Assembly (NCBI RefSeq): GCF_028751195.1
Contig: NZ_CP066785.1
Coordinates: 1-64,000, forward strand
Direction: 5' to 3'
Length of the DNA stretch: 64,000 nucleotides
DNA from: Alicyclobacillus sp. ALC3
GTDB lineage: Bacteria; Bacillota; Bacilli; Alicyclobacillales; Alicyclobacillaceae
Under the pieces are notes generated by a model. That model was not told the origin of the DNA, did no database searches, and saw nothing but the letters and a program-made list of their open reading frames with translations. The position numbers and the translations under genes were made by a program. The stretch's first letter is position 1; each line of letters begins with the position of its first letter. Of this stretch, positions 6,614 through 38,282 are shown in pieces.

Positions 6614-9271
6614 CTAGCGATTCTTGCGTTCGAACCCACAACCGGGGCAGTGCCATTTACGGCGGTCATCCGTTAACTCCAGCTGCGTCGTTTCACATTT
6701 AGGGCACAGCTTGGGCTTTGGACGCAGGTCAATCCTAGTTGCTTGCGGCTGCTCGACCGGCTCATCACGCGCAGCTGTCGTCTCGTGTGCTGTCACTGGC
6801 AGTGGCTCTGTTTCTCCGGTTTGTTCGGCGATTGGTTCCTCTGACTTCCTCACTTCTGGTGAGACGTGTTTCGGCTCATCTACTGGGTCGTTTGCCTCTG
6901 CTGCAGTTTCCGCCCGTTCATGTGCCACAGGCATGTCCGAGCGAACGAGGAACTTATCCAGCCGGATCACCTTGTTCGGGTCCGCTTCAGGCAGCACATA
7001 GGTGCTTGGTTTCGTGCTGGCCTCTCGGGTGAGCGTCGGCACGTCCACGTGAGTGAGGGACTCATCCGTCTCTGGCTCTGACACGGCCTCCGCCGGAGCT
7101 GCCGTGGCACTCTGTGCCGACATGGAAGCGCGAAAGGGACGTGGGAAGAATCCTCTTGGCGCCTGTTTGCTTGACGTCTCACCTACGGCCTCTTGGTGCG
7201 CGTCTACAGATGCTGCTTGATTCACCTTGAAGAACCCACGCTTGCGGTTCGCCCATTCATCAGCGAAGGATGTCAGACCCACAGCCGGTACCTGTACCTG
7301 GTTGTCCACTGTAATCGCAAAAATCGCCTCGTCCGCTTTCAAGCCATATGCGATGTCCTCCAGGCGGTACCGCGGGTCAACCGCTTCGTGCGTGCTGATG
7401 CGTCGGTCCAGATTCCTGCTGTCGAACCCGAACCATCCGAGTTTGTTCTCGGTGTGAGACTCCTTTATGACTGTCGTACTACCAAGCGCATTTTCCAGAA
7501 ACCTCGCGTCGTCCGGCGACGGTGCCGGGAAGTATATTTTGTTTCGACAGCTGCCCTCGACCACGTCCATGAACTTCTTTGAGACGTCGAGTAGCTGCGA
7601 CCTCGCCTGAATCGCAAGCATCATCCCGACACGATACTTGCGCGCCTGGGAGAACATTTCTGTGAACGACTCCGTGCCAAACACCGCGAATTCATCCACG
7701 TACAAATACACCGGTCGGCGTGTGTCTTCGCTGCCGCCTCGCTCGAGCGTGTACATCTTGAGTGCCACGAGGAACAACTTGCCGAACAGCTTTCCCGCAG
7801 GTCGGTTCCCCGTCACGATGACCAGCAGTCGTCCGGGTACATCCTTCCCTGCAGCCAGAAATGACTTGAAGTCTACTGCCGGCAGACTGTCCTTGCTGAA
7901 CACTTCCCGCAAACGTGGATTGCTTGCCAATTCATTGACGACAATTTTGAGACCCTTCGTGATGGTTTCGAGCTTCTCCATCTTCTGTTCGGTGAAGGTA
8001 TCCATGCGAAATGAGTTGGCCGCAGTAAAGACCATGCTCTGCTCGGCAGGACTCGCTGCATCATATCGGGCCTGAACCTCTGGACGCATGTGCTCCCACA
8101 TCGCTCCAGGTGCTTCCTCTTCGTTCTTCTTCTTTTTAGCTGGCGTGGGTGTGTCCTTCTGATGGGTCACGTACTGGTGGATCATGTCGCAGATCGCCCG
8201 GAAGTAGTGCGGGTTGGTGACGAGTTCGGCAAAGAACAGGAAGTCCGCTTCCGGCCACAAGGGCACCTGAACCTGAATAACGGTACGAACAAGGTCATCC
8301 TGCGCGTTTTGAAAAAAGCCATCCTGTTTGCCCATCTTCTCCTGCAAGGCCGCCCGCACATTGTCGATGATGTCGGCGATGTCGCCTCCAGCGAACGGAT
8401 TGAACGACACCGTGCTAGGCATGGACCCACGCAGGTCCATGACATCCGTGTGGATATTGAACTTCTGCGCCATGTCGACTGCCTTTTGCGCGAATCCACC
8501 GTCCGGGTCCACCACAATGACATCCATCGGCACTCCGTCAGCCACCGCTCGCAGGTCCTGGTAGACACCCTTGCTGAGGACTCGACTCGTTTTCCCCGTA
8601 CCGATGCTGCCCAGTACCAGCGTGTTGATGAAACGGTCGGTACCGTCGATGCGAATTTGTTTCCCGTTATCCTTGCGTACACCGACTTCGATGCCTCTGA
8701 TTTCAAACCTGTTTGGGTCCGTTTTGCGTTTGCCAGCGTACGCGCCTGACTCCGCATGTAGTCTCGACATCAGGTTTGCACGATTCGTTGGAGACATGCC
8801 GCGATAAATCAGGTATCCAATCGCCAATATCACCACGCCGATCAGCACAACCGCAGTTACCCAGGCGTTCTGGTGAACGAGTGGGCTCATCGCATTGAGG
8901 TTCGGCATGTGCACACTTGATGGCGACCCTTGTCCACTCGATGTCAGAGGATTCACGATGCCAGACACATTGCTGGATGTCGTGGCATGGTGGACGGTAC
9001 TTGTACCCTTGCCCCCCGCTTTCGCAGTTGTCTTTGCTGCCGCGTCCAGTGTCTTGTGCTGCCACGAAGCAATGGAATGGTGCACCTTGAACACAGCATA
9101 ACCGACTGCCCCAAGTGCGACGATGGAGAACATAGTCATCAGGCTTCCGAACATGCGATAGACCGTTCGGTACAGCAAGTAGGCGATGACTGCACCGCCT
9201 ATAATGAGTAGTAGCGGCGATTGAAACAGATGCCCCAGGACAGTGATTGGTATCCCCTGTGGGACGTGCAC
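6614..9271 (-). CDS. Type IV coupling protein-like ATPase (VirD4/TraG/TraD group) with C-terminal zinc ribbon
   Basis: 885 residues. N-terminal membrane helices (about 10-60) and another near 140-160 anchor it. Walker A GSIGTGKTS is near residue 222 and Walker B YLYVDEF near 524, with ARSQLLDV downstream, as in coupling proteins that hand relaxosome DNA to a conjugative secretion channel. A long acidic, low-complexity stretch (about 690-850) follows, then an unusual zinc ribbon CPKC...CPGC at the end. The GTG start at 9271 has GAGGAG 9 nt upstream. It follows the YdjM-like gene by 21 bp. Confidence 0.82.
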   Translation of the reverse strand: MHVPQGIPITVLGHLFQSPLLLIIGGAVIAYLLYRTVYRMFGSLMTMFSIVALGAVGYAVFKVHHSIASWQHKTLDAAAKTTAKAGGKGTSTVHHATTSSNVSGIVNPLTSSGQGSPSSVHMPNLNAMSPLVHQNAWVTAVVLIGVVILAIGYLIYRGMSPTNRANLMSRLHAESGAYAGKRKTDPNRFEIRGIEVGVRKDNGKQIRIDGTDRFINTLVLGSIGTGKTSRVLSKGVYQDLRAVADGVPMDVIVVDPDGGFAQKAVDMAQKFNIHTDVMDLRGSMPSTVSFNPFAGGDIADIIDNVRAALQEKMGKQDGFFQNAQDDLVRTVIQVQVPLWPEADFLFFAELVTNPHYFRAICDMIHQYVTHQKDTPTPAKKKKNEEEAPGAMWEHMRPEVQARYDAASPAEQSMVFTAANSFRMDTFTEQKMEKLETITKGLKIVVNELASNPRLREVFSKDSLPAVDFKSFLAAGKDVPGRLLVIVTGNRPAGKLFGKLFLVALKMYTLERGGSEDTRRPVYLYVDEFAVFGTESFTEMFSQARKYRVGMMLAIQARSQLLDVSKKFMDVVEGSCRNKIYFPAPSPDDARFLENALGSTTVIKESHTENKLGWFGFDSRNLDRRISTHEAVDPRYRLEDIAYGLKADEAIFAITVDNQVQVPAVGLTSFADEWANRKRGFFKVNQAASVDAHQEAVGETSSKQAPRGFFPRPFRASMSAQSATAAPAEAVSEPETDESLTHVDVPTLTREASTKPSTYVLPEADPNKVIRLDKFLVRSDMPVAHERAETAAEANDPVDEPKHVSPEVRKSEEPIAEQTGETEPLPVTAHETTAARDEPVEQPQATRIDLRPKPKLCPKCETTQLELTDDRRKWHCPGCGFERKNR

Positions 9272-13700: not shown

Positions 13701-15467
13701 TTACTGAACTACAGCGCGTGCCTGCGCCTCTGCATACGCCTTGAAGCGGTTGATTCGCGCCTCCAACCACGCCTTACCGCTCTCCGTAGCCAACACCGAG
13801 CGCCAGTATTCGGCGTCGAAGTTCTTCCCCAGTATCCGTACACGTTTCCTGGAGAATGCCTGTGTAAGCGCGTCCGATGCAGCACCGCGTGTCCACGTCT
13901 TGTCGTGTTGGATGCGGTATTGGTCGAGCAGATACGCCTGCCTCTTCGACATGGGCGCCGAACGCCAGTCCGCCTCCTTCTCAATCAGCTTTGTCTCCAG
14001 CAGCTGCAAAAAGCCTTCGGCAATGCCTTGTGCGTACTCGAGGGGTAACGCCCTGTCGTGCAGCGGCATGAACTTCTCGTTCTTCAGCTCGAGCACCGGC
14101 CAATACTCGTCCCCATCGCGGAACAGGTACGCCCAACGGGAATCGTCGTAACATATGGCGAACATGTCTTTGATTTTGTTCCATCGGTACCGGCTGCGAT
14201 TTGCGAACAGATTGATTGCCTGTGCGACTTGCTCCGACTTCTCCTGCTTTGCCCGGGTCACCTGGTCGACACGATTCACCCATTCAGTGACGGACTCACC
14301 GTCCTGCATTGGCAACTCCTCTTGATTTGCCTTTGCCCGACTCTTCGCTTGGACTTGGGTGGCGTCCTGGTCCCCTCTGCGCTGCGTCTTCATCAGCACC
14401 GTGAACGTCTGCAACGACTTGTCCTGGCTTGCGCCGGTAAGGTCCAACACCATCGCGTCGGACTTGCTCGGATGCAGACGGAGCGCTCGACCCACCATCT
14501 GCGTGTACAGGGACTGGCTGCGTGTGGGGCGCGCTATCACAACGGCATCGACGTCCGGTTGGTCGTATCCTTCCGTGAGGATCTGGCAATTCACTAGAAT
14601 TCGTAGACGATTTTCAGCGAAGTCTTTGAGAATCGACGACCGTTGTTCAGCCGCCATTCCACCATCTACTGCTGCGCACGTCATTCCAGCCTGTTTGAAC
14701 CTTTCGGCCAGCGCATTCGCGTGTTTCACGTCGACTGCGAACACGAGACACTTGCGATTGGCTGCATGTGTCCTCACGGCCACCACAACTGCGTCCAGGG
14801 CGTTCTCAAAGTTCAACACGTAGGACAGGTCCTTCGCGTTGTAGTCGCCGCCACTGGTACGGATGGCACTCAGGTTCAAATCTGGCACTTCTACCTTGAC
14901 CCCACGTACGTCTGACAGATAGCCATCTGCGATCATCTGAAGAATGGTTCGTTCGTACGCCAAGTGTTCAAAGACATCTCCCAGCTTCACCCCGTCTCCA
15001 CGCTGAGGCGTTGCGGTGACTCCGAGCAGCGGTGGACCGCCCGGTTCGAAGACACCCAGACGTTCAAGCATGCGGAGCGTACCAGGAGCGCCAACGTGGT
15101 GGGCTTCGTCGTATATCACCAGACCCGGTTGTCGAATCGCACGACCCGCGACGAGCGTCTGCGTCGACGCGAGCATGATCTCTCCCAATTGCTCGTTCTG
15201 GCTGCCCTGAACTCTGCCCGTGAACACATCAGGCCAGACCAAGCGTATTTTCTGGTCAGCCTGGTCGAGCAACTCGGAGCGGTGTGCGATGACGACAATC
15301 GGCCGCGTCGAATCCACCTCGTGGTAGTAGCGATGGGCCGCCGTGCCTATCACAATGGTCTTGCCGGCCCCTGTGGGCAACGATACCAACTGGCGACGAT
15401 ACTTGGGTAATGCCCCAAAAAATCCGTCTACGGCTTCCTTCTGATACGGGCGCAGCTGAATCTGCAT
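13701..15467 (-). CDS. DEAD/DEAH-box superfamily 2 helicase
   Basis: 588 residues. Walker A SLPTGAGKT near residue 30, DEAH near 118, the VTATP motif, and a C-terminal helicase domain with TEGYDQPDVDAVVIARPTRS and QMVGRALR. Layout matches restriction-type/RadD-like SF2 helicases that unwind or translocate on duplex DNA. ATG 15467 follows AAGGAGG and lies about 17 nt after the predicted transcription start, which rules out the longer frame. The C-terminal 200 residues are a family-unknown accessory domain. Confidence 0.88.
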   Translation of the reverse strand: MQIQLRPYQKEAVDGFFGALPKYRRQLVSLPTGAGKTIVIGTAAHRYYHEVDSTRPIVVIAHRSELLDQADQKIRLVWPDVFTGRVQGSQNEQLGEIMLASTQTLVAGRAIRQPGLVIYDEAHHVGAPGTLRMLERLGVFEPGGPPLLGVTATPQRGDGVKLGDVFEHLAYERTILQMIADGYLSDVRGVKVEVPDLNLSAIRTSGGDYNAKDLSYVLNFENALDAVVVAVRTHAANRKCLVFAVDVKHANALAERFKQAGMTCAAVDGGMAAEQRSSILKDFAENRLRILVNCQILTEGYDQPDVDAVVIARPTRSQSLYTQMVGRALRLHPSKSDAMVLDLTGASQDKSLQTFTVLMKTQRRGDQDATQVQAKSRAKANQEELPMQDGESVTEWVNRVDQVTRAKQEKSEQVAQAINLFANRSRYRWNKIKDMFAICYDDSRWAYLFRDGDEYWPVLELKNEKFMPLHDRALPLEYAQGIAEGFLQLLETKLIEKEADWRSAPMSKRQAYLLDQYRIQHDKTWTRGAASDALTQAFSRKRVRILGKNFDAEYWRSVLATESGKAWLEARINRFKAYAEAQARAVVQ

Positions 15468-15490
15468 GGCTCCACCTCCTTGCAGTAAAT

Positions 15491-15534
15491 ATTCTACCAG
15501 TTCACACAGCACATAGTCCGCCAAGTTACCGCCA
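15491..15534 (-). promoter_or_regulatory. TGGCG-type backbone promoter, copy d (helicase)
   Basis: Repeat pair at 15534-15518 and -10 box TAGAAT at 15496-15491, with TGG before it. Confidence 0.8.
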
Positions 15535-15644
15535 ATCTGTACGCAAAAAATGCCGCCGACAATGTGCCGGCGACAAATTTGGAAAGGAGGGAACCACTGC
15601 TGTTAGCTATAGTATTGCCGATCGGTATGGCAACTATTCATCTA

Positions 15645-15824
15645 TCACACTGCTGAAGAATCTTCAACAACCTGATACTCGTTCACCACGTGTGTGTACT
15701 CGTATCCATGAGTGCAATGTTCGCAGTGGACTCTGCAAACCGTTTCTCCAGCAGGAATGTTGAGATGGTTGATCTTCCCGCATTTCGGACATTCTGAGTC
15801 AATTTCCCAGTGGGTGTGTTTCAT
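15645..15824 (-). CDS. Small zinc-binding protein (59 aa)
   Basis: MKHTHWEIDSECPKCGKINHLNI start, CPKC and CEHC knuckles separated by about 20 residues, giving a zinc ribbon. GGAGAG 5 nt before ATG 15824. Member of a minus-strand group 17.5-15.6 kb. Function unknown. Confidence 0.6.
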   Translation of the reverse strand: MKHTHWEIDSECPKCGKINHLNIPAGETVCRVHCEHCTHGYEYTHVVNEYQVVEDSSAV

Positions 15825-15849
15825 ACTCACTCTCCTATGCCTGCCATTT

Positions 15850-16059
15850 TTACAGCGAACGGCTCGCCGCTATTTTGCGATACATCGCAATCACTGCCGG
15901 GTTCTCCCTTTCCCATTCTACGCTCCGCACGGCAGGGATACGATACTTCTGTTCCATCTGCATCATGAGGTTACTCAGTGCGCGCTCCCGTGCTTCCCCG
16001 ACTGGTGAACGTATGATCTGTTCGTAGTCTTCGTTGAATTGCGCCAAGTTGCTGCTCAT
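15850..16059 (-). CDS. Hypothetical plasmid protein (69 aa)
   Basis: Short helical protein (EARERALSNLMMQMEQKY) with a strong AAGGAGG site before ATG 16059. No known family. Confidence 0.6.
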   Translation of the reverse strand: MSSNLAQFNEDYEQIIRSPVGEARERALSNLMMQMEQKYRIPAVRSVEWERENPAVIAMYRKIAASRSL

Positions 16060-20254: not shown

Positions 20255-22381
20255 TTACGCTTCCTGCAACGCCCTCACAAACCTCGATATGGCCCGTTGC
20301 TTGTCACCGTACTTGTTTGCCGCAAGGAGATACAGATTCTGCTTTGCACGCGTAATTGCCACGTATGCCAGGCGCGTCTCTTCCCGGATTGCTTCCTTGG
20401 TCGTCGACTTGTTGTGAGGCAGCAACCCTTCTGCCAGTCCAGCGACGAACACATTCTCATACTCGAGTCCTTTGCTCCGGTGGATTGTAAGCAGCTGTAC
20501 TGCATCCTTCTTCGGTTTTTTGCTCTGCTCGATGATCCACTCGACATACCGCAGAAACTCTGGACCCGTCCGGTACCTGGACGCTGATGTGATGAGTGAG
20601 TCAACCCACTTGATAGGGTCGTCCTCATCCTGTTCCCGAATCAGACCTTTTTGGGAGCTCACCAGCCACTCAATGGCTTTGGCAGGCTCTACAATCTGTT
20701 TTAGACGTTGGACGCATTGGACAAACCCTTGACACTTCGGATGTTGCGCGACCGCGTTCCAGCCGGCCTGCTGCATCTCTTTGACCACGGCGATTGGAAT
20801 GAACCGTCGTGGCCGATTGAGTAGATGCCCCCAGACGGACGCGTCTGATGTGTCCTGGGTCGTGCGCAGGTAGTCCAGTATCACCTTCACGTCTCTGTTC
20901 TCGTAAAAGTGCACATCACCGACCACGTGGTTGGGAATCTTCAGCTCTGCGAGCGCTTCTTCATACACCCGGGACTGAATGTTGGTCCGGTACAAGATGG
21001 CGTACTCACTCCACGGCACGTCCGGATTCCGCTTGTGCAAGTCCGCAATCTCGCTTGCCACAAACTTTGCCTCTTCAATGTCCGTTTGAACCGTGACCAC
21101 CTGCGTCACCGCGTCGGCGGACATTTCCCGATTGGCGACGACCTTCTTGCTCACTTGGTGACCACGGTTCAGGTCGATGATGCGATTCCCCAACTCCACA
21201 ATGAGGTCATGAGACCGATAGTTCGTCGTCAAGAACACCTTTTTCGCCTGGGGAAACTGTTTGACGAATTGACCCATCAACTCAGGCTTGCTGCCTCTGA
21301 AGGAGTATATCGCTTGCCAGTCGTCTCCGATTGCACACAGGTTGTTCGTCCTCTGGACCACCTGCAGGATGAACATCCACTGGGCCATGTTCGTATCCTG
21401 AAATTCGTCGACGAGGACGTAGTCCCACCGATTCTGCCAACGCTTTGCAAATTCCCGATCGCTGCGAAACAATTCAATCGCCTGCAGCAAAAGGTCTTCA
21501 AAGTCTATCTGCTGACGGTCTGTCTTGATGGCCTCATATGCCGCGTAGACTTGCCCAAGTTTCCCTTCCACCTGGCTTGGCCACAATCCATCCGCCTTTG
21601 CTTTGAAGACCGCCGTGATGGCATCGGCCGGCTTCATGATGCCCCCTACTGCGTGGGGATTGTATTGGCTCGGTTCCTCCAATGCCTGTTCGACAAGCCA
21701 GGATGGTTCGGCCACAACCCTCCACCCGTCACCCAAGTGCGGCAACACCATTCGGTACGCCACGGAGTGGATCGTGCCAATCGTGACTTCTTTACCGGAG
21801 TCCCCTGCCACCCCAATTAAACGAGTCTTCATTTCGCTTGCTGCCTTCTTGGTGAACGTACAAGCCAGAATACGCCGTGCAGGGACACCGCTGTCCATCA
21901 GGAACTTAATCCGTTGAATGAGCATGGCTGTCTTGCCCGAACCAGCTGCCGCGATCACGATACAGGGTCCGTCCTTGTGCGTTGCCGCTTCACGTTGTGC
22001 GTCGTTGAGTTCGCCTAAGCTCGGCACAAATGGTGTCCCCCGCTTCCTTCCGCCCACCTCGCCACCCTGGCTATCGCTCGCCGGTTGCACGAGAGGTTGT
22101 TTGCGTACGCTCTGGTAGGCCGGTCTCATGTGATGGCGCGGGCAATCCCGCGCATGTTCGTGGTATGGGTTGGTGACGACCGCATACGTCGGAGGGCGAA
22201 TCCGGATGCGTCGCATATGCATGGGAACAGGGCGCTCAGGTCTGCAAGTGCACAACAGTACCGCGCCAACTTCATAGAGCTCGTGGAGCAACGTTTGAAC
22301 CTGCTCCCCACCAGTCGCCAACTCCTCATATGACAGGTGGTGCCTACGACCTCGGTGAACCACTTCAACCTGCAGACCCAT
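20255..22381 (-). CDS. UvrD/PcrA-family helicase with extra N-terminal Cys/His domain
   Basis: 708 residues. UvrD motifs are complete: AAAGSGKTAML near residue 150, TFTKKAASEMKTR, DFEDLLLQA, VDEFQDTN, DWQAIYSFRGS, TTNYRS, and TIHRSKGLEYENVFVAG. It should unwind DNA 3' to 5' using ATP. The first 110 residues are unusual: CTCRPERPVPMHMRR...HEHARDCPRHH, a CxC...H...C arrangement like the start of DUF1173 proteins, perhaps a zinc DNA-binding module. ATG 22381 has GGGAGG 8 nt upstream and follows a TGGCG-type promoter. Confidence 0.88.
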   Translation of the reverse strand: MGLQVEVVHRGRRHHLSYEELATGGEQVQTLLHELYEVGAVLLCTCRPERPVPMHMRRIRIRPPTYAVVTNPYHEHARDCPRHHMRPAYQSVRKQPLVQPASDSQGGEVGGRKRGTPFVPSLGELNDAQREAATHKDGPCIVIAAAGSGKTAMLIQRIKFLMDSGVPARRILACTFTKKAASEMKTRLIGVAGDSGKEVTIGTIHSVAYRMVLPHLGDGWRVVAEPSWLVEQALEEPSQYNPHAVGGIMKPADAITAVFKAKADGLWPSQVEGKLGQVYAAYEAIKTDRQQIDFEDLLLQAIELFRSDREFAKRWQNRWDYVLVDEFQDTNMAQWMFILQVVQRTNNLCAIGDDWQAIYSFRGSKPELMGQFVKQFPQAKKVFLTTNYRSHDLIVELGNRIIDLNRGHQVSKKVVANREMSADAVTQVVTVQTDIEEAKFVASEIADLHKRNPDVPWSEYAILYRTNIQSRVYEEALAELKIPNHVVGDVHFYENRDVKVILDYLRTTQDTSDASVWGHLLNRPRRFIPIAVVKEMQQAGWNAVAQHPKCQGFVQCVQRLKQIVEPAKAIEWLVSSQKGLIREQDEDDPIKWVDSLITSASRYRTGPEFLRYVEWIIEQSKKPKKDAVQLLTIHRSKGLEYENVFVAGLAEGLLPHNKSTTKEAIREETRLAYVAITRAKQNLYLLAANKYGDKQRAISRFVRALQEA

Positions 22382-22413
22382 CTGCATACCCTCCCGTCCC
22401 ACCATTTACACCT

Positions 22414-23208: not shown

Positions 23209-23282
23209 AAAAAGCCCCTGCGATCGCCTGATCACAGGGGCCATTATCCTCACGGATGTTCTAGTGAGCTCCATCACCATAG
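23209..23282 (-). promoter_or_regulatory. Fluoride riboswitch 1 (no obvious own gene)
   Basis: Minus strand GGTGATGGAGCTCACT, then AACATCC...GGATAATGGCCCCT, the crcB-motif core, followed by a GCCCCTG hairpin and TTTTTC. The element is intact but leads only into the DUF1173-like fragment. Confidence 0.8.
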
Positions 23283-23592
23283 AGTTTTTCTACATCGTAC
23301 GAGCGTTTGAAAGACAAGGACACGGCTGTTGTCCCACAGGCCTATAGTTGGCGATCCTACTGGAATGAGACTGAGGCCATGAACGGATCGCATCTAATTG
23401 CACTGGCGTGCAGCCAAGGTTCTGTGTAACATATGACATCTCGATCCCAATGTTATCGAATTTCAACGCATTCTCTACAACAATCAAAGACGAGCGGGGT
23501 CAGGTTCTAAACCATTAAGCCCTGATTTCGTAGACGTCAACGAGAATGAGCAAGTCCAGGAAAGTGACGGCTATTGCCAAGTAACCGTACAG
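23283..23592. other. Intergenic stretch, no gene seen
   Basis: About 310 bp between riboswitch 1 and the DUF190 gene. It should hold the riboswitch promoter; no clear -35/-10 pair was found and the 65-codon frame inside it has no ribosome site. Confidence 0.5.
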
Positions 23593-24351
23593 TCATCTCC
23601 TCCAGAGGTCTGTAATACGTCGCAATGGTCCGGAAACCGTCCTTTGGGCCACCTTAGTATCAGTACCGATTGCTGGGCCAGTACTTATGCCATATGACTG
23701 CATGATAGTCACCGGAATCACGACGGCAGGTCCAGAAGAGTAGGACAGAAGAGGCTCTAGAGTGGCTAGTGTTAGTATCGCAGTTTCGGCCTCTAGAATG
23801 GCGTCAACGATGATTGACTCACGGAGTCGATGTGAAGGAATATCATGCGAGGTTCGATATCGGCTTAATCCTCGATAGACGAGTGTCGATATGGCGCCAT
23901 CTCTCTTTAATACTCGTACTAGTTCAGAAATGAGTGGTCTTCCGAGAACCATTTCTGATCCGTTGAGGTAAACCTTGAGAGCGGCTCCCCCTGTTTCGTG
24001 GATACTGGAGGTCATTACCTCTAATTTCGTTACCGACAGATCGATTGCAGGGACTTCTATGACATCAACCGGGATCTTCAGTTGGCGATTGAACAAAGTG
24101 TTGAGCTGACCTATGACGTCCGTCTCCGCAAAAAATTGTATGGATACGGGCAAATTGTCGCATGCATACTCAGAGTAGGCATTCTTAAAATGTCCATTGC
24201 GATCAAGCCCATATACCCCGCGAACCACCGTATATCCTTGAATGCCAGCCGGGATCAGCCATTCGGTAATTTCACGGTATACCAGCTTGCCGAATGGACG
24301 TAGCCGCTCATCGTCGTAAGTCAGAATCTCCACATACACTCCACGTGACAC
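23593..24351 (-). CDS. Tandem DUF190 protein of the crcB operon
   Basis: About 252 residues with two DUF190 (PII/CutA-like) repeats: GVYVEILTYDDERLRPFGKLVYREITEWL...GIQGYTVVRGVYGLDRNGHF and, later, AALKVYLNGSEM...LVRVLKRDGAISTLVYRGLSRYR. DUF190 genes often sit beside crcB and are thought to assist the fluoride channel; the mechanism is unknown. GTG 24351 is chosen because GAGG lies 9 nt upstream and DUF190 begins there; the frame is open to 24429. It is the third gene of the riboswitch 2 operon. Confidence 0.82.
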   Translation of the reverse strand: MSRGVYVEILTYDDERLRPFGKLVYREITEWLIPAGIQGYTVVRGVYGLDRNGHFKNAYSEYACDNLPVSIQFFAETDVIGQLNTLFNRQLKIPVDVIEVPAIDLSVTKLEVMTSSIHETGGAALKVYLNGSEMVLGRPLISELVRVLKRDGAISTLVYRGLSRYRTSHDIPSHRLRESIIVDAILEAETAILTLATLEPLLSYSSGPAVVIPVTIMQSYGISTGPAIGTDTKVAQRTVSGPLRRITDLWRR

Positions 24352-24454
24352 TTCGAAGCACCTCGCATTCCATACATTTAGTAGGATACACAGGGGCTTA
24401 AGGAGTTCCAAAGAAGAAGTGCTGGTCATTCTGCGGTTGTGATCCGAGAGCCTG

Positions 24455-25442: not shown

Positions 25443-26660
25443 TCAATAAAGGGCCGCGATCGGAGCAATTTTCTTGGATAACTCCAGTATCCCGTTCTTG
25501 AACGACAACATCCCACCGCGGTTCACCATAACGTATGTGGAAATTTGACGGCGGGCTTTTAAAGCGTAATACAAAGTATGACTACTGTACGCAGTCACAA
25601 AAATTACCCCGTCAACGCCGGAGAGAATATCTGCCCCCTGGTTCATTTTTGAAAAGCCAGGAACCAGAATCACCTCAGCACCTTCTTCCTCAAGAAGAAC
25701 CCGATATATGTGGTGTCGGGTGTCATCGCCAACAACAGCAATTTTGCGGCCCTGCAGGATTCGCTGATGCTGTTCCTCCGACAGTTGCCGAACTGAAATG
25801 GGTGATCGCTTGTAGAGGCTGTTGACAATGTCCATGAGTTCATCTATTTCCTGAGTATGGTTCATTTTTAACTGCTGTATCTCATCTTCCAGTTCTTCGA
25901 CTTTTCGAGCCAAATCACTCCTCTCGCGTGATTTGTGTTTATCTCCGTGTGCACGAAAAAAAGTCTCGACCTGCATGGTGTGGAGGATCTGCTCCAGATA
26001 TCGTAGGTCTTGGTCATATGTAGCCCACAGGGTCTGGAGCCAGAACTCGCTACGGGCCGGATCTATGAACGCGGCAAATGAGGCTAGTAGATAGCCCGTG
26101 GCAACGTGTTTTGGCACCAAAGCATTCTCTACGTAGCTGACCTGCCCACAATTCGCGTACTCTTCGAGTTCTGAAATAGTCCCGTTCAGAACCAGGGATT
26201 TCAGCGTACGACCTTGCGCATCTGTCTTCGTTAGCGTCAGATATCGTTCAACGATGCGGAGCCACTCTGCCTGTTTATGACGGGACGCCCTCAAGTGTCG
26301 AAGGACAACCATCGCCTGTTCCAGCGGCGTCATCTTCCGCGTAACAGGAATTGCGTTACGCGAGGCAAACGTTTGGCGTACGTCAAAGGGCATGTTCATC
26401 CAAAGGAATACAACACCCGAATCCTTCAGAAGTTGTGTGACCTCTGCCAAAGAATACAACACCGTGAATGCCTCGTCTGCATCGAATGCCTCACCTAACA
26501 AGCACTCTTGTAGTTCAGATACGGTTACGATTAGCTCTGTCTCTTGCAGTTGTTCAAAGAATTCTTCTCGATTGTCATATCCCGCCGGGTCCGCTAAAAA
26601 ACTCAGCTGCGGAATACATGCACCACCTTCAATTCGCACTCTCATCCAAAACTCTGCCAA
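25443..26660 (-). CDS. DUF2325 protein under a fluoride riboswitch
   Basis: About 405 residues. The C-terminal 95 residues are DUF2325: QGRKIAVVGDDTRHHIYRVLLEEEGAEVILVPGF ... GVDGVIFVTAYSSHTLYYALKARRQISTYVMV. A coiled coil (about 265-300: DLARKVEELEDEIQQLKMNHTQEIDEL) precedes it. The N-terminal 250 residues are unassigned. TTG 26660 has GGGAG 7 nt upstream. DUF2325 has no assigned function. Riboswitch 3 makes it fluoride-inducible. Confidence 0.8.
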   Translation of the reverse strand: MAEFWMRVRIEGGACIPQLSFLADPAGYDNREEFFEQLQETELIVTVSELQECLLGEAFDADEAFTVLYSLAEVTQLLKDSGVVFLWMNMPFDVRQTFASRNAIPVTRKMTPLEQAMVVLRHLRASRHKQAEWLRIVERYLTLTKTDAQGRTLKSLVLNGTISELEEYANCGQVSYVENALVPKHVATGYLLASFAAFIDPARSEFWLQTLWATYDQDLRYLEQILHTMQVETFFRAHGDKHKSRERSDLARKVEELEDEIQQLKMNHTQEIDELMDIVNSLYKRSPISVRQLSEEQHQRILQGRKIAVVGDDTRHHIYRVLLEEEGAEVILVPGFSKMNQGADILSGVDGVIFVTAYSSHTLYYALKARRQISTYVMVNRGGMLSFKNGILELSKKIAPIAALY

Positions 26661-26699
26661 GAGACCACTCCCCCACGGCACTGTGTTATAAGCCCTCGA

Positions 26700-26796
26700 A
26701 AAAAAGAAAAAACAAATGGCTCCTGCGAATGGTCAAATCCATTCGCAGGAGCCATCATCCCAAATGGGTAGTTTACGGTGAGCTCCATCACCAATT
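26700..26796 (-). promoter_or_regulatory. Fluoride riboswitch 3 (DUF2325 gene)
   Basis: Minus strand TTGGTGATGGAGCTCACC, AAACTACCC...GGGATGATGGCTCCT, then terminator GGCTCCTGCGAATGG...CGCAGGAGCC-like stem and a long T-rich tail. TATACT at 26815-26810 is the likely -10 box. Confidence 0.92.
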
Positions 26797-26965
26797 TGAT
26801 ATTACCATCAGTATATCTCATCACGAGGGTACTTAAAACCTTGCTTACATGGAACGTGTGTACAAAGCAGTTCTGAAGGCGATCAGCTCGCGTGTATTGA
26901 TGCCACGAACCCTTCTTCCCCTATTTCATTGGCCTACTGTCGCCTCAAATCGGAGGCCCTTTTCC

Positions 26966-27430: not shown

Positions 27431-27559
27431 ATCCTAAGACCTTTAACATGGTACTGCTGCACGACTACATTCAGCAGAGTACCAAACTTCCGGAAGATGA
27501 TCGGTTCCTTCTTTCGCAATCCAGCATACAATGGACCTAGAGCGTTACTTACGCGGTTG

Positions 27560-27646
27560 CGCGAAGGTGATGGAGCTCGCCATCAAACGCCACCAGGCTA
27601 ATGGCTCCTATCCAGATAATCCATCTGGATAGGAGTCATTTTTGCA
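27560..27646 (+). promoter_or_regulatory. Fluoride riboswitch 4 (hydrogenase-like gene)
   Basis: Plus strand AAGGTGATGGAGCTCGCC, ATCAAACGCC...GGCTAATGGCTCCT, then a 14-bp terminator stem (CTCCTATCCAGAT/ATCTGGATAGGAG) and ATTTTTGC. A TACAAT -10 box lies at 27527-27532. Confidence 0.94.
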
Positions 27647-27762
27647 TTTTCGAGGATTGGGGCTCGTCCGCTACGCTGACAAGTGGAAGGACCTCCATAG
27701 CATTCACTCCAGCCGTGGCGCCACAGAGCACACAGCCATCCTATCACCAGGGGGAATGAACC

Positions 27763-29259
27763 ATGTACAAACTGCCAAACCGAGATACTCTTAAGGCCAC
27801 GTCCCATGATGTATATCAGGCCAACAGTCTGAGCGATTTTTCTAAAGCGCTGCTTCAATATTGCCGCAGCGACGGACGGGCAGATGGTGCACCCCTGTGG
27901 CAGTTGTTGTACTACGGCGCGATCCGAGAACAAGAGAAGAATTCCCTGCTAGCTGTTCTGGCGCAACCGGGAACCGGAGAGGAGTTGTGGATCGCGGCGG
28001 CTCTCTCCGACAGCGAGCCCTGGCCGTCGCTCGCCAACGACTGGCCTGCGCTCCTGTGGCCAGAGCGTGAGGCATGGGAACGGACTGGCTTTGAGCCATT
28101 GGGACATCCGGACCTCGTTCCACTCTTGCAGCCACATCGCTTCGAACTTCAGGGCCGAGCACAAGGCGCTGGAGTCTTCTCACTACCGCTCGGACCGGTG
28201 CGAGCGGACGTCAGCGAGTCCGGTTTCTTCATGTTTGACACCGTCGGAGAGCAAATCATGCACATGCAGCTGCAGCTGTTTTACAAGCACCGCGGCGTTG
28301 AACAACTGGCGATTGGGCAGCCCATTGACCACGTCCTGCTCATCTCGGAACGCATCTCCGGCACGGCGACTGCGAGCCACGCATGCGCATACGTTACGGC
28401 GGTGGAGCGAGCGATACAATGGCGTGCGCCGGTAGAGATTCAGCGCGAGCGCCAACTCTGGATAGAACTCGAACGAATGTACAACTACGCGCACGACCTA
28501 TCCCAACTCGCATCCGCTGCCGGCATGACCGTTGGGCAAGCACAGTTGGCGCGAGTGAAAGAGGAGTGCTTGAGGCTGGCTGGTGGCCTCTCTGGGTCGC
28601 GCTACCTTCGCGGCTCCATCCAGCTGTTTCGCGCATCCGGTCTGGATTGGAAGGCTGTGATGCCGACCCTCGAATCTCGTCTGCTGGCCATCGACAAGCG
28701 ATTCGCTCGCTTTGTCCGGTTGCTCCGGCGAACGCCATCGTTCGTCGACCGCCTTGTCGGTACAGGCATTGTGAACCGAGCCTGGGTAGACGAGTATGGA
28801 TTAGTCGGTCCCACCGCGCGGGCATGCGGGATCACGACAGACGTTCGAAACGACTTCCCACCGAAGTTCCAGAATGCAGGGTACGAAGTGTGTACGGCCG
28901 GGACTGGAGTTGGTGATGCGAAAGCCAGGTTTGACGTGCGTGTCGCCGAGTGGCACGTGTCAGTCGCTATGGTCCGCCATCTCGCCAGCGAGCTAGCCAA
29001 CGCGAACCCAAGGGGCGCCTGCGTTGCCATCCGCGCTCAGACTGAGGGCTGGGGTGTTGGAACAGTGGAGGGGCCGCGCGGCCGGATCGCCCACGTCGTC
29101 GCTGTCGAAGACGGGCGCGTCAAGTTTTTCGGTGTCCGCTCCGCTTCGAGTTGGATCTGGCCAGTCTTTGGACTCGCCACCGCAAACGGCAACATCCAAA
29201 CCGACTTTCCGGTCATTGACGCGAGCTTGGGGCTGTCCTATGCAGGTGTCGATCGCTAG
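27763..29259 (+). CDS. HycE/HyfG-like hydrogenase-3 large subunit lacking metal-binding cysteines
   Basis: 498 residues joining a 30-kDa (NuoC-like) N-terminal domain to a 49-kDa (NuoD/NiFe large subunit-like) domain, as in formate hydrogenlyase HycE. LPLGPVRADVSESGFFMFDTVG and HRGVEQLAIG are clear. In the first nickel motif ER-ISGT-ATASH the CxxC cysteines are gone (about residues 194-205), and the C-terminal motif reads DASLGLSYAGVDR without cysteines, so it cannot hold a NiFe centre. ATG 27763 has GGGGGA upstream. Controlled by riboswitch 4; partner subunits are absent or decayed. Confidence 0.85.
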   Translation: MYKLPNRDTLKATSHDVYQANSLSDFSKALLQYCRSDGRADGAPLWQLLYYGAIREQEKNSLLAVLAQPGTGEELWIAAALSDSEPWPSLANDWPALLWPEREAWERTGFEPLGHPDLVPLLQPHRFELQGRAQGAGVFSLPLGPVRADVSESGFFMFDTVGEQIMHMQLQLFYKHRGVEQLAIGQPIDHVLLISERISGTATASHACAYVTAVERAIQWRAPVEIQRERQLWIELERMYNYAHDLSQLASAAGMTVGQAQLARVKEECLRLAGGLSGSRYLRGSIQLFRASGLDWKAVMPTLESRLLAIDKRFARFVRLLRRTPSFVDRLVGTGIVNRAWVDEYGLVGPTARACGITTDVRNDFPPKFQNAGYEVCTAGTGVGDAKARFDVRVAEWHVSVAMVRHLASELANANPRGACVAIRAQTEGWGVGTVEGPRGRIAHVVAVEDGRVKFFGVRSASSWIWPVFGLATANGNIQTDFPVIDASLGLSYAGVDR

Positions 29260-29550: not shown

Positions 29551-30399
29551 TCATTCGTCTGTCAATGTGGCATAATCAACGAACGCGTTTAGGCGCAATT
29601 TCTGCATAGCGCCGCTTTCAATTTGACGAATGCGCTCGCGTGTCAGCCCGTATAGTCGCGCAACCTCCTCCAAGGTCTTCGGCTCAAATCGACCCAATCC
29701 AAACCGCAAGCGAATAATGTCCCGCTGCCTGGCACTAAGGGTGGAAAGTATCTGTTCCACTGCCTGTCTTCTGGCATGCTGTTCAACGATTTGAAACGCA
29801 ATGTCTGACCCAGGATCCGCTACGAACTCCTTCAGTTGCACGTTTTCTTCTTCACCGATTGGGGTCTCAAGTGAAAGCGGGTCATGGATCATGCTTTGTA
29901 ACACAGTGACCATTTCAGGGCTGACTCCAAATTTACTCGCGATCTCCTCAACCGTTGGTTCAGTCCCCCGTTCGGCTAGTATCCGATACTGGAATTTCTG
30001 AATCCTTTGCATGGCCTCAAAGGAACGTACAGGTAACCGAATGGTTCTCGATTTCTCTGCCAAAGCCCGACTTATCGCCTGCCTAATCCACCAAGTTGCA
30101 TATGTACTAAACTTGAATCCCTTTGTGTAATCGAATTTTCTTGCCGCCGTCATCAACCCCATATTTCCTTCCTGAACGAGGTCTTCCAGTTCCAACCCAC
30201 GATTCACATACCGCTTTGCTATACTAATCACAAGTCGCAAGTTCGCCTCGACCAGTTTCTTCTCCGCTTCCCGATCTCCTTGCGACACACGCTTGCCTAG
30301 CTCGACCTCTTCTTCCGCACTCAGCAGGAGTTTTTCACCGATACTTTCCAAGTACAAATTCATGATGGGGTTTCTATCACGCGTGTTGTTAGTGTACAA
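29551..30399 (-). CDS. RpoD-like sigma-70 factor under a fluoride riboswitch
   Basis: About 282 residues covering regions 1.2 to 4.2: [28 protein letters not shown], region 2 ([46 protein letters not shown]), region 3, and region 4 ([20 protein letters not shown]). There is no region 1.1, so this is a group 2 sigma factor that should direct RNA polymerase to a set of promoters. Start: TTG 30399 with GAGG upstream keeps region 1.2 whole; ATG 30363 is the alternative. Riboswitch 5 lies directly upstream. Confidence 0.92.
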
Positions 30400-30439
30400 G
30401 CGACACCATCCTCGTAACGTGCCAAACACGTCAAGAAAT

Positions 30440-30530
30440 AATAAAAAAATAAAATAAGGCTCCTGCGGGCCAACAAGACCGCAGGAGCCATTATCCCAAT
30501 GGGCGGTTAAGGTGAGCTCCATCACCTACC
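30440..30530 (-). promoter_or_regulatory. Fluoride riboswitch 5 (sigma factor)
   Basis: Minus strand TAGGTGATGGAGCTCACC, TTAACCGCCC...GGGATAATGGCTCCT, then CTCCTGCGG...CCGCAGGAG and a long T-rich run. Confidence 0.94.
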
Positions 30531-30646
30531 TACACAACGTAACTTTAATTACACTTTTCAAGAAATGCAAATCAATTAGATTCGCGCCTATATCTTGCAA
30601 GTGTCGGTAACAACGAGGCGCCAGTGGAAGGCCGACACGGAAGAAC

Positions 30647-32066: not shown

Positions 32067-32480
32067 AGCGATCACACTGATCTTGATTGTCCTCGACAAA
32101 GCTAGCCCTTCTCAAGTGAACGCCATGAACAAGGTGAGCACCGGGACTAACAGAGACACGATCGGTGGCGCCGCGAAGCACACGTACGGCGCAATACCGT
32201 GGCTCCACAACTGGTCGAGTTGCCGCGCATCGTGTTGGTGACGCCGCTCAACAAAGAGTTCTCGACCAATAGAAGGAGTAAGTCCGAGCAAGCGCGGGCC
32301 GAGTATTGTTCAGCCGTACCGCGATCTGCGCAAACTGTTTGTTAAGGAAACGCTGTTGCCAAAAGATGCGGCGCTCTTGCACGGGCTGAACGACATGGAC
32401 GACCTCCGTTCGAGTGTCTGGCGCGGTCAACCCCATACGGGTGCAGATCACACAAGAATGGTTTCTGTCCGGAGTTCCCC
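32067..32480 (+). pseudogene. Decayed remnant of a HycD/HyfC-like membrane subunit
   Basis: No intact gene is present. On the plus strand at about 32285-32360 the reading SKRGPSIVQPYRDLRKLF VKETLLP is seen, which matches the cytoplasmic loop of formate hydrogenlyase/complex I subunit HycD/NuoH (GPSxxQPYRDLxKL). Stops and frame changes surround it. This suggests that a hyc/hyf-like operon once accompanied the riboswitch-controlled large-subunit gene. Confidence 0.5.
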
Positions 32481-33980: not shown

Positions 33981-34079
33981 ATCATTGTACCTTTCCCTTC
34001 CCTGCCCCACAATGTATCGAACGATATGCTACACTGAATGAACAAGCTAAGGGTTTGGTAGCATTTGGAGGTGTCTGTT

Positions 34080-34751
34080 TTGTCTGAATCCGGGACACTG
34101 CTGCACATTTACCTGCACGAAAGCGACCGGACAAAGGCCTTTGGCAATCCCGTCTTCGAGGATATCGTCAAGTATCTGTTTGAGAACGGCGATCCCGGTG
34201 TGACGGTCCTTCGAGGCGAAGCTGGCCTCGACAAGAAAGGCCACGTTCTCGATGCTCATACAGAGTACATCTCCTATGAGCTGCCAATCGAGATGCAGAT
34301 CTACGGACCGACCGATCAAATCAGCCGCATCGTAGCCAGCGTAAATGAGCCAGTCCAAAAGGTCGGCGGTCAGATGGTGACGATTCCTGAAGTGTTGGAC
34401 ATGAAAGCAGAGGGAGGTAGAGAGAAAATGAAGGATGAGGATTCACTGCTGCGCGTATACATGAAGGAAGACGATCAATATCACCATGTCCCTTTGTATG
34501 AGGCATTGCTCAAAATGCTGCAACAGCAGGGCCTGTACTGGGTCACAGTCGCGCGAAACTTGGAAGGGTTCGGCAAGGAGCATGTCATTCACAAGGCGCA
34601 GTTGTTCCATCCCGCACATCACCTCTCTCTCTCGATGGAGGCCGTAATTCCAGCCTTAAAACTGAAAGACATTATGACCACCATCCAACCGTTGCTTGAG
34701 TCCGCATCCGGTCCTGCCATCCTGCTGCAGGGACGCCTGTTTCACAAGTGA
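34080..34751 (+). CDS. Tandem DUF190 protein
   Basis: 223 residues with two DUF190 repeats: LLHIYLHESDRTKAFGNPVFEDIVKYL...GVTVLRGEAGLDKKGHV and LLRVYMKEDDQYHHVPLYEALLKML...YWVTVARNLEGFG. The TTG at 34080 is chosen because GGAGG lies 8 nt upstream. Unlike most nearby genes it has no riboswitch I can see. It is divergent from the MFS gene and convergent with the MutS pair. Probably related to fluoride handling by association. Confidence 0.82.
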   Translation: MSESGTLLHIYLHESDRTKAFGNPVFEDIVKYLFENGDPGVTVLRGEAGLDKKGHVLDAHTEYISYELPIEMQIYGPTDQISRIVASVNEPVQKVGGQMVTIPEVLDMKAEGGREKMKDEDSLLRVYMKEDDQYHHVPLYEALLKMLQQQGLYWVTVARNLEGFGKEHVIHKAQLFHPAHHLSLSMEAVIPALKLKDIMTTIQPLLESASGPAILLQGRLFHK

Positions 34752-34775: not shown

Positions 34776-36299
34776 TCACCCCTGCTTTCCTTCTAGGGCA
34801 GCGGTTGTTGCCTGTTCAAACACCTCCTCGTACAGATCCCGACCGAAACTCGTTGACAGCGGGCGCCCTGGTTCAATCCGAAACGTCCGCTTCCCTTCCT
34901 CTGTCCGCATCGCGCGAAGAAACAGCGTGTCCTCCCTCTGCTCACCGTACAGCTTGCCTGCAAAGGCATAGAGGTGCGTGACAAACACCACCTGTACGCT
35001 ATGTTCGACCAAGGCTTCGATAATCTGTCGCGCCACCTCTGAACCTTCGCGTTCGTTCGTTGCGGCAAACGACTCATTGCAGAGCAACAAGGCTTCAGGG
35101 CTGATCTGATCGACGATGTGACTCATGCGGCTGAGTTCTTCATCGAATTTCCCTTGGTTCATCTCTGCATCTTCTTCTTTCCGGAAGTGTGTGAACACTG
35201 CTTCAACAGTGTTCGCAGTCAGCGACCGAGCGGGTACAAACATCCCGCTTTGCATCATCAACTGCGTGATGCCAACGCTGCGGAGAAAGGTTGACTTTCC
35301 GCCCTGATTTGCGCCGGTCACCACCCACAGGTCCTTCCCGTCAGCACTCAGGTCATTGCCGACAACCTGCTGTTGTGTGTTCAAGCAGAGGCAGATATCG
35401 TAAATACCCTGCGCGTACCAATGGCGCTCACGTGCGTCAAGCGGCGTCGGGAAGCATGTGGGCGCACCAATCCTCACCAGACCGTCCGACACGTTTAGGC
35501 AGCCGACAAAGAACGCCACTTCCGCTTTGAGCTGGTGAAAGAACGAGAGGATGTGGTCCGCAGACTGTGCCAGCGCGTTCGCGGCCTGGTTCGTTCCACG
35601 GTCCTTCATTTCTGCAAGGACCCGATGACCTGCCTCGTCCCGAGCGGATAGGTGAAACGTGTAGCCGCGCCGTCTGCCCAGCACCAGACCCAGCCAGTTG
35701 GGCCCCCTGTTCTCGTCCTGCACAAGCGTGTAGTGAGTACCGCGGTTCCCAGGACCCAGTTGTACGCGTAACAACATTCCGTTGTCGATGTCAAAGCGTT
35801 TTAGATGGGCGCGCACCCGTTCTAAGTAGTCGTCGGATAATTCAACTTGAACCATATCAAACAGCGCAGTTAAACCAGCGGATTCAACTCTGTTGCGATT
35901 CTGATCTGCAATCGACCGAAGTTTGTGCAGCGCCTCCATCAGCAACTGTAGCAGGCGGACGGACTGATAGATAACTCCGGACGGATTCTTCGTGAAGATG
36001 CCGAGGTAGTTTTTGCGCCGCGCTTCCAGCGTCTCTGAGGCGAGTTCGTACATCTCCCGTGCCAGCTCCGGCGAACGCAGAAAAACCTTCAGAACGTCTT
36101 GGCGGTAGACAATCGTGCCTGGATCCGATATACCACAGAGAATCGCCGTACGGGCAGAGTTAAACAGGAACTCGTCGCGTTGTGCCATCGCGTCGAAGAG
36201 TGGTGTAAGTGCCAGGTCATCGATGAGTTCTTGCGCGTTTGGCGGCAGCGTCTGGTTGAGATCAAAGTCTCGGTCCGGATACATCAGGTGAACCTTCAT
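34776..36299 (-). CDS. MutS-like ATPase, second of a pair
   Basis: About 507 residues. The C-terminal MutS ATPase is complete: VTGANQGGKSTFLRSVGI near 330, RKEEDAEMNQGKFDEEL, LLLCNESFAATN (Walker B NES), VVFVTHLYAF. The N-terminal half has the clamp/lever helices but no mismatch-binding domain, as in MutS-related proteins of unknown role. ATG 36299 overlaps the stop of the first copy (ATGA), so the two are cotranslated and likely form a heterodimer. Confidence 0.85.
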   Translation of the reverse strand: MKVHLMYPDRDFDLNQTLPPNAQELIDDLALTPLFDAMAQRDEFLFNSARTAILCGISDPGTIVYRQDVLKVFLRSPELAREMYELASETLEARRKNYLGIFTKNPSGVIYQSVRLLQLLMEALHKLRSIADQNRNRVESAGLTALFDMVQVELSDDYLERVRAHLKRFDIDNGMLLRVQLGPGNRGTHYTLVQDENRGPNWLGLVLGRRRGYTFHLSARDEAGHRVLAEMKDRGTNQAANALAQSADHILSFFHQLKAEVAFFVGCLNVSDGLVRIGAPTCFPTPLDARERHWYAQGIYDICLCLNTQQQVVGNDLSADGKDLWVVTGANQGGKSTFLRSVGITQLMMQSGMFVPARSLTANTVEAVFTHFRKEEDAEMNQGKFDEELSRMSHIVDQISPEALLLCNESFAATNEREGSEVARQIIEALVEHSVQVVFVTHLYAFAGKLYGEQREDTLFLRAMRTEEGKRTFRIEPGRPLSTSFGRDLYEEVFEQATTAALEGKQG

Positions 36300-37822
36300 G
36301 ATGACAACCGCTCCTTCAACTGAGTATAGGTCAGGCGGTGTTTCTGCGCGATCGACAGGGCATAGGAGAGACCGTCCGCAGGATGGCGTATAACCTTGAA
36401 CGTACGCACTGCAGGATTGTCCTCGCACACAGTGCTCGTCATGCTGACCGTCTGCTCGCCAAGGGAAGCCAGTTCGTCGATAAAGGTGACCAATACGCAC
36501 GGGGCGTCAAGCCGCATCACGGCGTCCATCGCCCTTTTGCCCAGGTAGATCCCGTCCTCGAGCGACGTGGAACTGAAGATTTCATTGATGATTAGGATTG
36601 AGCGAGGTGTCGCCTGGTCAAGGATGTCCCGAAGCCGAAGCAAATCGTCTTTCAGCTTGCCATTTCGGTCTGCGGCGTGCTCCTCCCGCTCGAAGTGCGT
36701 GTGGATTTGATCGAACAGGTAGAGCTGTGCCTCTTTGGCTGGCACCGGACAGCCTAGGCTGGCGAGGTAGTGCAGTTGTCCAAACATGCGCGCGAAGGTG
36801 GTCTTCCCACCTTGGTTGGGACCCGACACAACGAGGATGCGTTCCCTGCCTCGCAGCCAGAAATCATTTGGAACCACAGGCTCCCCATCGGTTGCCAACT
36901 TCTGCGCTAGCGGCAAGTCAACGGCTTCCTTTACGCTTACCTCTTTGCTGTTGTCCGACACAACTGGGTAACAGAAGGCCAGTCGACGATTGCGGAGCCT
37001 CGAGATATAGTTGATGTACACCATATAAAACTGGATCTCGCGGTCAAATGTGACCACTCCTTCGTCCAAAAAATCCTGGTGTTCTACATTCAATTGCTCC
37101 AGTTTGGCAAACTCATTTGGAAACAGCTTGGTGAGTCCATCGACGACAAGCGCATCCACGTGACTCATTTGCATCCAGTCGGAAAACTTAACTCTGTAGT
37201 CCTTAACCTCACCCTGCCTAAACTTGGCGAAGGTCTCCTCAATCTCAACACTGTAGTCAGGTTCCGACCCAGAAGGCTGCACGGTCACGGAATCTCCTTT
37301 GATAAAAACGCAGTATCGAATGGCCCGCAGACCCCGATTCGTGTTTTCTACATCGTCCGCCAGCTTTCGAAACGAACCTGAAGACACGTACACTCGCAGG
37401 TTCTCGCGATACGTCTGCAGGCCCTGTGACTTCAGTTCCACTGTGTCCAGACCCTTTGCTAGCAACAGGGCAGCGCGACAGTAAATTTGCACCATTTCCA
37501 GGAACCACGCCTTCTCCTGCGCCGGGTAGTACAGGCGTTGCATTTCCTTCTGATACCTGCGTACCCGCTGCATCTCCTCCGCGAAGTCCGCAATCACAGC
37601 ATGAACCGGTGGGCGTTCGACGTCCCGCATCACCTGCTGTCGGAAATGAATGACATCCGTCGTTGTTGCTGGCGTGTAAAAGAACGGCTTGAGATTGTAG
37701 TCCTCGCGTCCGCGTGTTAAATCGTCTACGACCTGATCGAGATTCAGGTCGGTGAAGAATTCAGGCATCGTCGTCTGCGCCGACCAACCGCTAGAAGGTG
37801 TCAGGACACTCGTGAACGTCAT
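36296..37822 (-). CDS. MutS-like ATPase, first of a pair, under a fluoride riboswitch
   Basis: 508 residues with P-loop VVSGPNQGGKTTFARMFG near residue 334, HFEREEHAADRNGKLKDDL, ILIINEIFSSTS (Walker B), and VLVTFIDELASLG. As in its partner, the mismatch-recognition domain is missing, so it cannot act as classic MutS. GGAGG lies 9 nt before ATG 37822. Riboswitch 6 is upstream. An association of mutS-like genes with the crcB RNA motif has been noted before, as I recall; the biochemical role is unknown. Confidence 0.87.
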   Translation of the reverse strand: MTFTSVLTPSSGWSAQTTMPEFFTDLNLDQVVDDLTRGREDYNLKPFFYTPATTTDVIHFRQQVMRDVERPPVHAVIADFAEEMQRVRRYQKEMQRLYYPAQEKAWFLEMVQIYCRAALLLAKGLDTVELKSQGLQTYRENLRVYVSSGSFRKLADDVENTNRGLRAIRYCVFIKGDSVTVQPSGSEPDYSVEIEETFAKFRQGEVKDYRVKFSDWMQMSHVDALVVDGLTKLFPNEFAKLEQLNVEHQDFLDEGVVTFDREIQFYMVYINYISRLRNRRLAFCYPVVSDNSKEVSVKEAVDLPLAQKLATDGEPVVPNDFWLRGRERILVVSGPNQGGKTTFARMFGQLHYLASLGCPVPAKEAQLYLFDQIHTHFEREEHAADRNGKLKDDLLRLRDILDQATPRSILIINEIFSSTSLEDGIYLGKRAMDAVMRLDAPCVLVTFIDELASLGEQTVSMTSTVCEDNPAVRTFKVIRHPADGLSYALSIAQKHRLTYTQLKERLSS

Positions 37823-37904: not shown

Positions 37905-37992
37905 AGATAAATAAGGCTCCTGCAGTCGGCTGTCGCCAAATCTGCAGGAGCCATTATCCCAGCGGGATGTTGACGGTGAGCTCCATCACCAG
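37905..37992 (-). promoter_or_regulatory. Fluoride riboswitch 6 (MutS-like pair)
   Basis: Minus strand CTGGTGATGGAGCTCACC, GTCAACATCCCG...GGGATAATGGCTCCT, then CTCCTGCAG...CTGCAGGAG and TTATTTATC. TATACT (38013-38008) is the probable -10 box. Confidence 0.94.
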
Positions 37993-38282
37993 ATGTTCTT
38001 TGATCCAAGTATAGCTCATGGGAGAACGGAATGGGAATATGGAAACGCTTCGCGTTGAGCCTCACCCCTTGCCTGTATCCGGATAGGCGCATGGATCCGC
38101 CTTCTATGTAGTTAACTTGTCCCACATCTCACTCTGCGACCAGATTGTTTAGCAGCATGCGAGGGCGTAGTATTTGAACACGAATCGGCAGGCGGTCGGT
38201 CGGAGCATGCATTCTCCGTAATAGAAGAGTACCCCCACGTACACGTCGCTGACCATATCCTCTGTTCCCCCCAACCCCACAG

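Follow-up and report, generated by a model that had tools for sequence, protein, structure and literature searches.

An orphan, cysteine-less EhrL-type large subunit behind a fluoride riboswitch in Alicyclobacillus sp. ALC3 and its fluoride-switched Ehr relatives

Ehr (energy-converting hydrogenase-related) complexes contain subunits that resemble those of group 4 [NiFe] hydrogenases but are devoid of the CxxC ligands of the NiFe site (PMC6349859, PMC10432482). Formate hydrogen lyase genes have been reported behind the fluoride riboswitch RNA (Weinberg et al. 2010, PMC2864571), as the preliminary description of the locus studied here had mentioned, and a fluoride switch of Alicyclobacillus ferrooxydans is among those validated by in vitro transcription (PMC13273304). 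The presence of such genes behind fluoride riboswitches raises the question why fluoride would call for hydrogen production. The present analysis concerns a large-subunit gene behind a riboswitch of this type in Alicyclobacillus sp. ALC3. The genome of this strain consists of two contigs, a chromosome of 4.94 Mb and a second replicon of 137 kb that is likely a plasmid; the window, that is, the whole stretch of DNA analysed, comprises the first 64 kb of the latter. In base composition (53 % GC) it resembles the chromosomal stretches examined (48–58 %). Sister plasmids were not found in PLSDB, where the best protein matches were about 31–35 %.

The large-subunit gene (27763–29259, forward strand) is an uninterrupted ORF of 498 codons with a GGGGGAA ribosome-binding site 6 nt before its ATG. 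Three Pfam families, Complex1_30kDa, NiFeSe_Hases, and Complex1_49kDa, match the protein above their cut-offs, a NuoC-like domain being followed by a NuoD/NiFe-hydrogenase large-subunit domain, while the NCBIfam cut-offs for NuoD are missed (105 bits vs 360 and 86 vs 459). A first AlphaFold model made from 13 close sequences, with a pLDDT of 69.6 at the former NiFe site, was superseded by one made from 79 sequences (pLDDT 90.3, pTM 0.92). The best match of this model in the PDB is the large subunit of E. coli formate hydrogenlyase (TM 0.84, 24 % identity), and the next is NuoCD of complex I. By homology and by fold the window protein is, thus, a large subunit of the group 4 [NiFe] hydrogenase type (HycE/HyfG), and the NuoC-NuoD-type, HycE-like fold proposed earlier is borne out by both Pfam and the structure match. 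At the four NiFe-ligand columns (ERISGTATASH and DASLGLSYAGVDR) it carries S, A, S, and G where HycE and other group 4 enzymes carry C, C, C, and C in the alignment, and neither of the two NiFe-binding CxxC pairs is present. The proposed loss of all NiFe ligands therefore stands, and the protein, a group 4-like large subunit without NiFe cysteines, is of the Ehr type. A frame error hiding the cysteines was ruled out by the uninterrupted ORF and by its alignment over the full length with 12 relatives.

These 12 close relatives, eleven of which come from other genomes of the order, are 47–65 % identical to the window protein, and all of them (12/12) lack the four NiFe cysteines. Relatives with a full NiFe motif are only about 30 % identical. 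A newly decayed true hydrogenase can be dismissed, the motif being missing from all nearest relatives. The cysteine loss is also not a peculiarity of the orphan: every member of its clade shows it, in agreement with the Ehr complexes already known (PMC6349859, PMC10432482).

Upstream of the gene, an aptamer of the fluoride riboswitch family RF01734 was detected by Rfam at 27557–27617 (+), with a score of 47.4 bits (gathering score, 34) and an E value of 5e-10 over the window. An intrinsic terminator with an 18-bp stem and a T run, located at 27600–27640 (+), forms the expression platform; its 5' arm is the 3' strand of the aptamer (ATGGCTCCTAT), and it is conserved in the leader of a chromosomal operon discussed below. 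Such an overlap between aptamer and terminator is the usual layout of an ON switch, in which the gene is on when fluoride binds. The riboswitch control claimed for the gene is, thus, upheld by the Rfam match and the overlapping terminator directly upstream, and the layout points to a response to fluoride. The riboswitch and the start of the ORF are separated by 145 bases. A putative -10 element, TACAAT (GCATATAATG), at 27527–27532 (+) is conserved in an alignment of the window leader with that of the chromosomal operon and may serve as part of the promoter.

The chromosomal operon (locus L046, 7319–15112) starts with a fluoride riboswitch (C1:1151318), followed by homologues of HyfC, HyfE, HyfF, the large subunit, HyfH, HyfI, and HyfB, and then, on the other strand, by a DUF190 gene. 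It has the riboswitch, promoter, terminator, and cysteine loss in common with the window copy, to which its large subunit is 65 % identical, but is complete with seven genes, whereas the window copy is reduced to the large subunit plus a stub of hyfC. An operon of this type with a cysteine-less large subunit encodes an Ehr complex. The NuoH-, NuoL/N-, and NuoB-like partner genes that mark an Ehr locus are present in the chromosomal operon and in the relatives and missing beside the window gene; the window gene encodes an Ehr-type subunit without being part of an Ehr operon. On the 137-kb contig no convincing homologue of HyfE, HyfF, HyfH, HyfI, or HyfB was found, the best being a weak HyfF match (E 0.004), and hyfC is present as fragments only. 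A Pfam search of the genome returned, besides the orphan and the chromosomal copy, a single further homologue, which is NuoD-like. The gene had been described as an orphan, which is correct for the 137-kb replicon but not for the genome.

The relatives in the eleven further genomes have the same partner genes around them wherever their contigs extend far enough. Within the order, a riboswitch above the Rfam cut-off precedes hyfC in L046, L051, L052, L053, L058, and L060; the candidate in L059 (28.1 bits) is below this cut-off, in L055–L057 the corresponding position holds no more than a weak candidate (about 17 bits with model R1), and L050 and L054 are truncated on the upstream side. A covariance model built from the local riboswitches was also applied to 64 loci that contain large-subunit homologues and come from many phyla. 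It gave only two matches, in L084 (Nitrospirota) and L081 (Acidobacteriota), with Rfam scores of 42.9 and 40.4 bits, respectively. In both, the riboswitch lies ahead of hyfC, the four cysteines are missing, and hyfB is the last gene, while most other Ehr loci examined start with hyfB. The large-subunit tree alone leaves these two members unplaced, but a tree of HyfC, in which the large subunit is not used, joins them with the Alicyclobacillales operons (99/98). The fluoride-switched Ehr operons are, thus, one clade across three phyla. No riboswitch was found in the cysteine-containing loci examined, which have either four cysteines (L061, L062, and the group 4 relatives among L123–L138) or three (L063). 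The last-mentioned locus belongs, with L036, L037, and L042 of the same order, to a group of large subunits with three of the four NiFe cysteines and Asp as the second ligand (CGAD/CGSD), perhaps another altered active site. A paper linking Ehr to fluoride or describing the fluoride-switched clade was not found in the literature covered, which was incomplete; as far as we found, the clade is new.

The fluoride-switched complexes have lost their redox parts to differing extents, with the membrane part retained. In all 15 members of the clade the NiFe-ligand columns are occupied by S/A/T, S/A/T, S, and G (or E), and the loop histidine that is kept in nearly all other aligned relatives, cysteine-less Ehr included, is replaced by R, Y, or F. 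The ferredoxin-like subunit has at least eight cysteines in ten members and only four or five in L058, L060, L081, and L084, which amounts to a loss of cluster cysteines in 4 of 14. The NuoB-like subunit retains its four cluster cysteines (CxxC..C..C) in 12/12 operons of the order, with the same motifs in L081 and L084, and HyfC is strongly conserved across the clade. A working hydrogenase or another redox enzyme that binds its metal via non-cysteine ligands would agree with the hydrogenase large-subunit fold and with the retained NuoB-type cluster in the chromosomal partner, but is made highly improbable by the ligand positions found throughout the clade, by the concomitant loss of the loop histidine, and by the degraded ferredoxin subunits. 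The new catalytic activity that had been entertained finds no support in anything found here, and a structural role within a membrane complex is our best guess for the window protein.

The leaders of the two copies tell how the orphan may have come about. The window leader matches that of the chromosomal operon over the promoter-like element, the aptamer, the terminator, and the beginning of hyfC, whose first ~18 codons remain at 27691–27744 (+) without the start codon (TSIAFTPAVAPQSTQPSY vs MSLSFTQAVAPQIAQLAF). Beyond this stub, the window leader resembles the sequence just upstream of the chromosomal large-subunit gene: the junction region with the ribosome-binding site at 27745–27756 (+), in which the exact breakpoint is only approximately placed, aligns as ATCACCAGGGGGAATG with ATCGCAAGGGGGAAAT. 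At the junction, ~3 kb with hyfE, hyfF, and the greater part of hyfC are missing; the genes that follow the large subunit on the chromosome are absent too. The start of hyfC that has survived in the leader marks the orphan state as secondary; it arose, to judge from these sequences, by deletion of the neighbouring subunit genes. A broken, frameshifted piece of a second hyfC copy (about codons 7–70) is located at 32193–32382 (+), and an inverted, broken piece containing APYVCFAAPPIVSLLVPVLTLFMAF at 32094–32264 (-). These pieces are not the part that was deleted from the leader, as codons 7–18 are found in both places; at least two copies of hyfC must, therefore, once have been there.

We give an even chance to the view that the orphan is a second, likely plasmid-borne EhrL of the fluoride-switched Ehr complex and acts as a spare for the chromosomal one. 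Its main rival is a functionless relic: the operon copy on the plasmid would be in the process of being lost, with the large-subunit gene as the last readable piece by chance, expressed without use. Quite possible as this is, given the start-codon-less hyfC fragment in the leader, the further broken and inverted ones at 32.1–32.4 kb, and the absence of any other subunit from the replicon, it has to account for an uninterrupted ORF of 498 codons that is still equipped with a good ribosome-binding site, a promoter-like element, an aptamer, and a terminator. The hyfC debris, a sign of a decaying region, and the lack of a partner subunit on the plasmid also tell against a spare large subunit, for which the hyfC remnant and the conserved elements of the leader speak. 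The orphan is also the only one among 13 clade members in 59 genomes of the order, as might be expected of a relic, but it is as conserved as the copies in full operons. The tree places it next to the chromosomal copies as their sister, its branch measuring 0.33 and theirs about 0.28, and its lineage-specific changes are distributed similarly over the codon positions (24/16/31 vs 29/15/42). Clade-invariant positions are altered at 7 of 143 sites, compared with 0–13 of 136–149 in full-operon members; dN is 0.25 and dS about 1.9, the latter being near saturation, which limits pairwise dN/dS. From the likeness in branch, codon positions, and invariant sites it follows that the orphan was for most of its history under the same constraint as the full-operon copies. 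As only one orphan is available, these measures span its history before and after the deletion together, and the constraint may predate a deletion that could be recent. The hyfC fragment at 32 kb has changed at 3 of 18 clade-invariant positions, a difference from the 7 of 143 in the orphan that goes against a relic but is suggestive only (p 0.086).

An improbable alternative is a free-standing protein with a new role outside the membrane complex, e.g., as a sensor or chaperone in fluoride or metal stress. It would suit a gene with its own switch and no partner nearby, but the regions that known structures show facing the NuoB-like subunit and the membrane subunits, namely the loop LPLGPVRADVSES and the two former NiFe motifs, are conserved to the same degree as in members with a full operon, and a set of partners exists on the chromosome.

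The orphan is part of a fluoride island at 23–38 kb of the window with six riboswitches above the Rfam cut-off. The genes behind them encode a CrcB pair, a DUF2325-like protein, the EhrL-type subunit, an RpoD-like sigma factor, an MFS transporter, and two MutS-like ATPases. The DUF2325-like protein (412 aa, 25443–26681, -), in which the likeness is weak and confined to the C-terminus, is preceded by the riboswitch at 26739–26801. The riboswitch at 30475–30535 (-) lies at the start of the gene for the RpoD-like sigma-70 factor (29551–30525, -), through which fluoride may activate an entire additional regulon, and the one at 37938–37999 precedes a tandem pair of MutS domain V ATPases (34776–37822, -). 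A seventh aptamer candidate, at 23228–23287 (-), scores 26.9 bits, below the Rfam cut-off, and 39 bits with the local model; behind it lie a small ORF and the gene for a UvrD-like helicase (20255–22405), a hint of a further DNA-repair unit under fluoride control. Proteins of the DUF190 family are repeatedly encoded next to fluoride genes, at 23593–24429 (-) and 34065–34751 (+) in the window, at 15176–15883 (-) in L046, and next to the Ehr operon of L052. The fluoride regulon of both replicons contains CrcB pairs, and a chromosomal riboswitch (L049, 7528–7596) lies ahead of a gene for a Na+/H+ exchanger family protein (7833–9197). This presence of ion transport in the regulon speaks for the orphan as a spare EhrL.

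If the orphan is such a spare subunit, the ancestral unit on the plasmid would have been riboswitch-hyfC-E-F-G..., as on the chromosome, and the loss of most of hyfC and of hyfE and hyfF, as suggested by the hyfC remnant and the junction, would have brought the large-subunit gene under direct control of the riboswitch. Upon a rise in fluoride, the aptamer would fold and the terminator fail, and, as the layout implies, the orphan would be transcribed along with the chromosomal operon. Its product would most likely substitute for the chromosomal EhrL, binding to the NuoB-like subunit encoded on the chromosome and to the membrane arm formed by HyfC/B/E/F. It would do so as a structural or coupling subunit rather than as a hydrogen-making enzyme, because the NiFe ligands and the loop histidine are missing. 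HF passes through membranes under acidic conditions, and F- leaves via FluC channels, following the membrane potential. Entry of HF would, thus, deliver both F- and H+ into the cell of an acidophile, where the complex would probably move protons or other cations and might so help to restore the internal pH and the membrane potential needed by FluC (CrcB) for the exit of F-. Given this background and the uneven loss of redox parts with retention of the membrane part, the complex is most likely, as we hypothesize, a fluoride-induced ion pump or antiporter. A wider reading, which we put forward tentatively and with some doubt, is that fluoride-switched Ehr complexes are a distinct and old complex I-like class that transports ions against fluoride/HF stress and is losing its redox parts stepwise (the NiFe site and loop histidine in all members, the ferredoxin clusters in some, the NuoB-type cluster still being kept), with the orphan as an interchangeable large subunit.

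The question that results is whether a relative of complex I without a catalytic site guards cells from fluoride by moving ions, which bears on how the soluble and membrane arms are coupled in complex I-type machines. The orphan offers a natural single-subunit test case for this. As one case of operon breakdown it is of modest interest without a phenotype; greater interest attaches to the clade from which it comes.

Compared with the large subunit HycE of E. coli formate hydrogenlyase (7z0s chain E), the window protein has the same fold and domain order at 24 % identity, but HycE has the four NiFe cysteines and the window protein has none. The missing CxxC ligands are what the fluoride clade has in common with the published Ehr complexes (PMC6349859, PMC10432482). 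The other Ehr loci examined mostly have hyfB first, carry no fluoride riboswitch, and keep the histidine of the GPVHAG loop, whereas in the fluoride clade hyfB is last, a riboswitch is present, and R, Y, or F occupies the position of the loop histidine. The association between the riboswitch and "formate hydrogen lyase" genes in PMC2864571 is probably the same as the one described here. That label implies hydrogenase activity, whereas every riboswitch-linked member examined here, all from one clade in three phyla, belongs to a complex without the hydrogenase active site.
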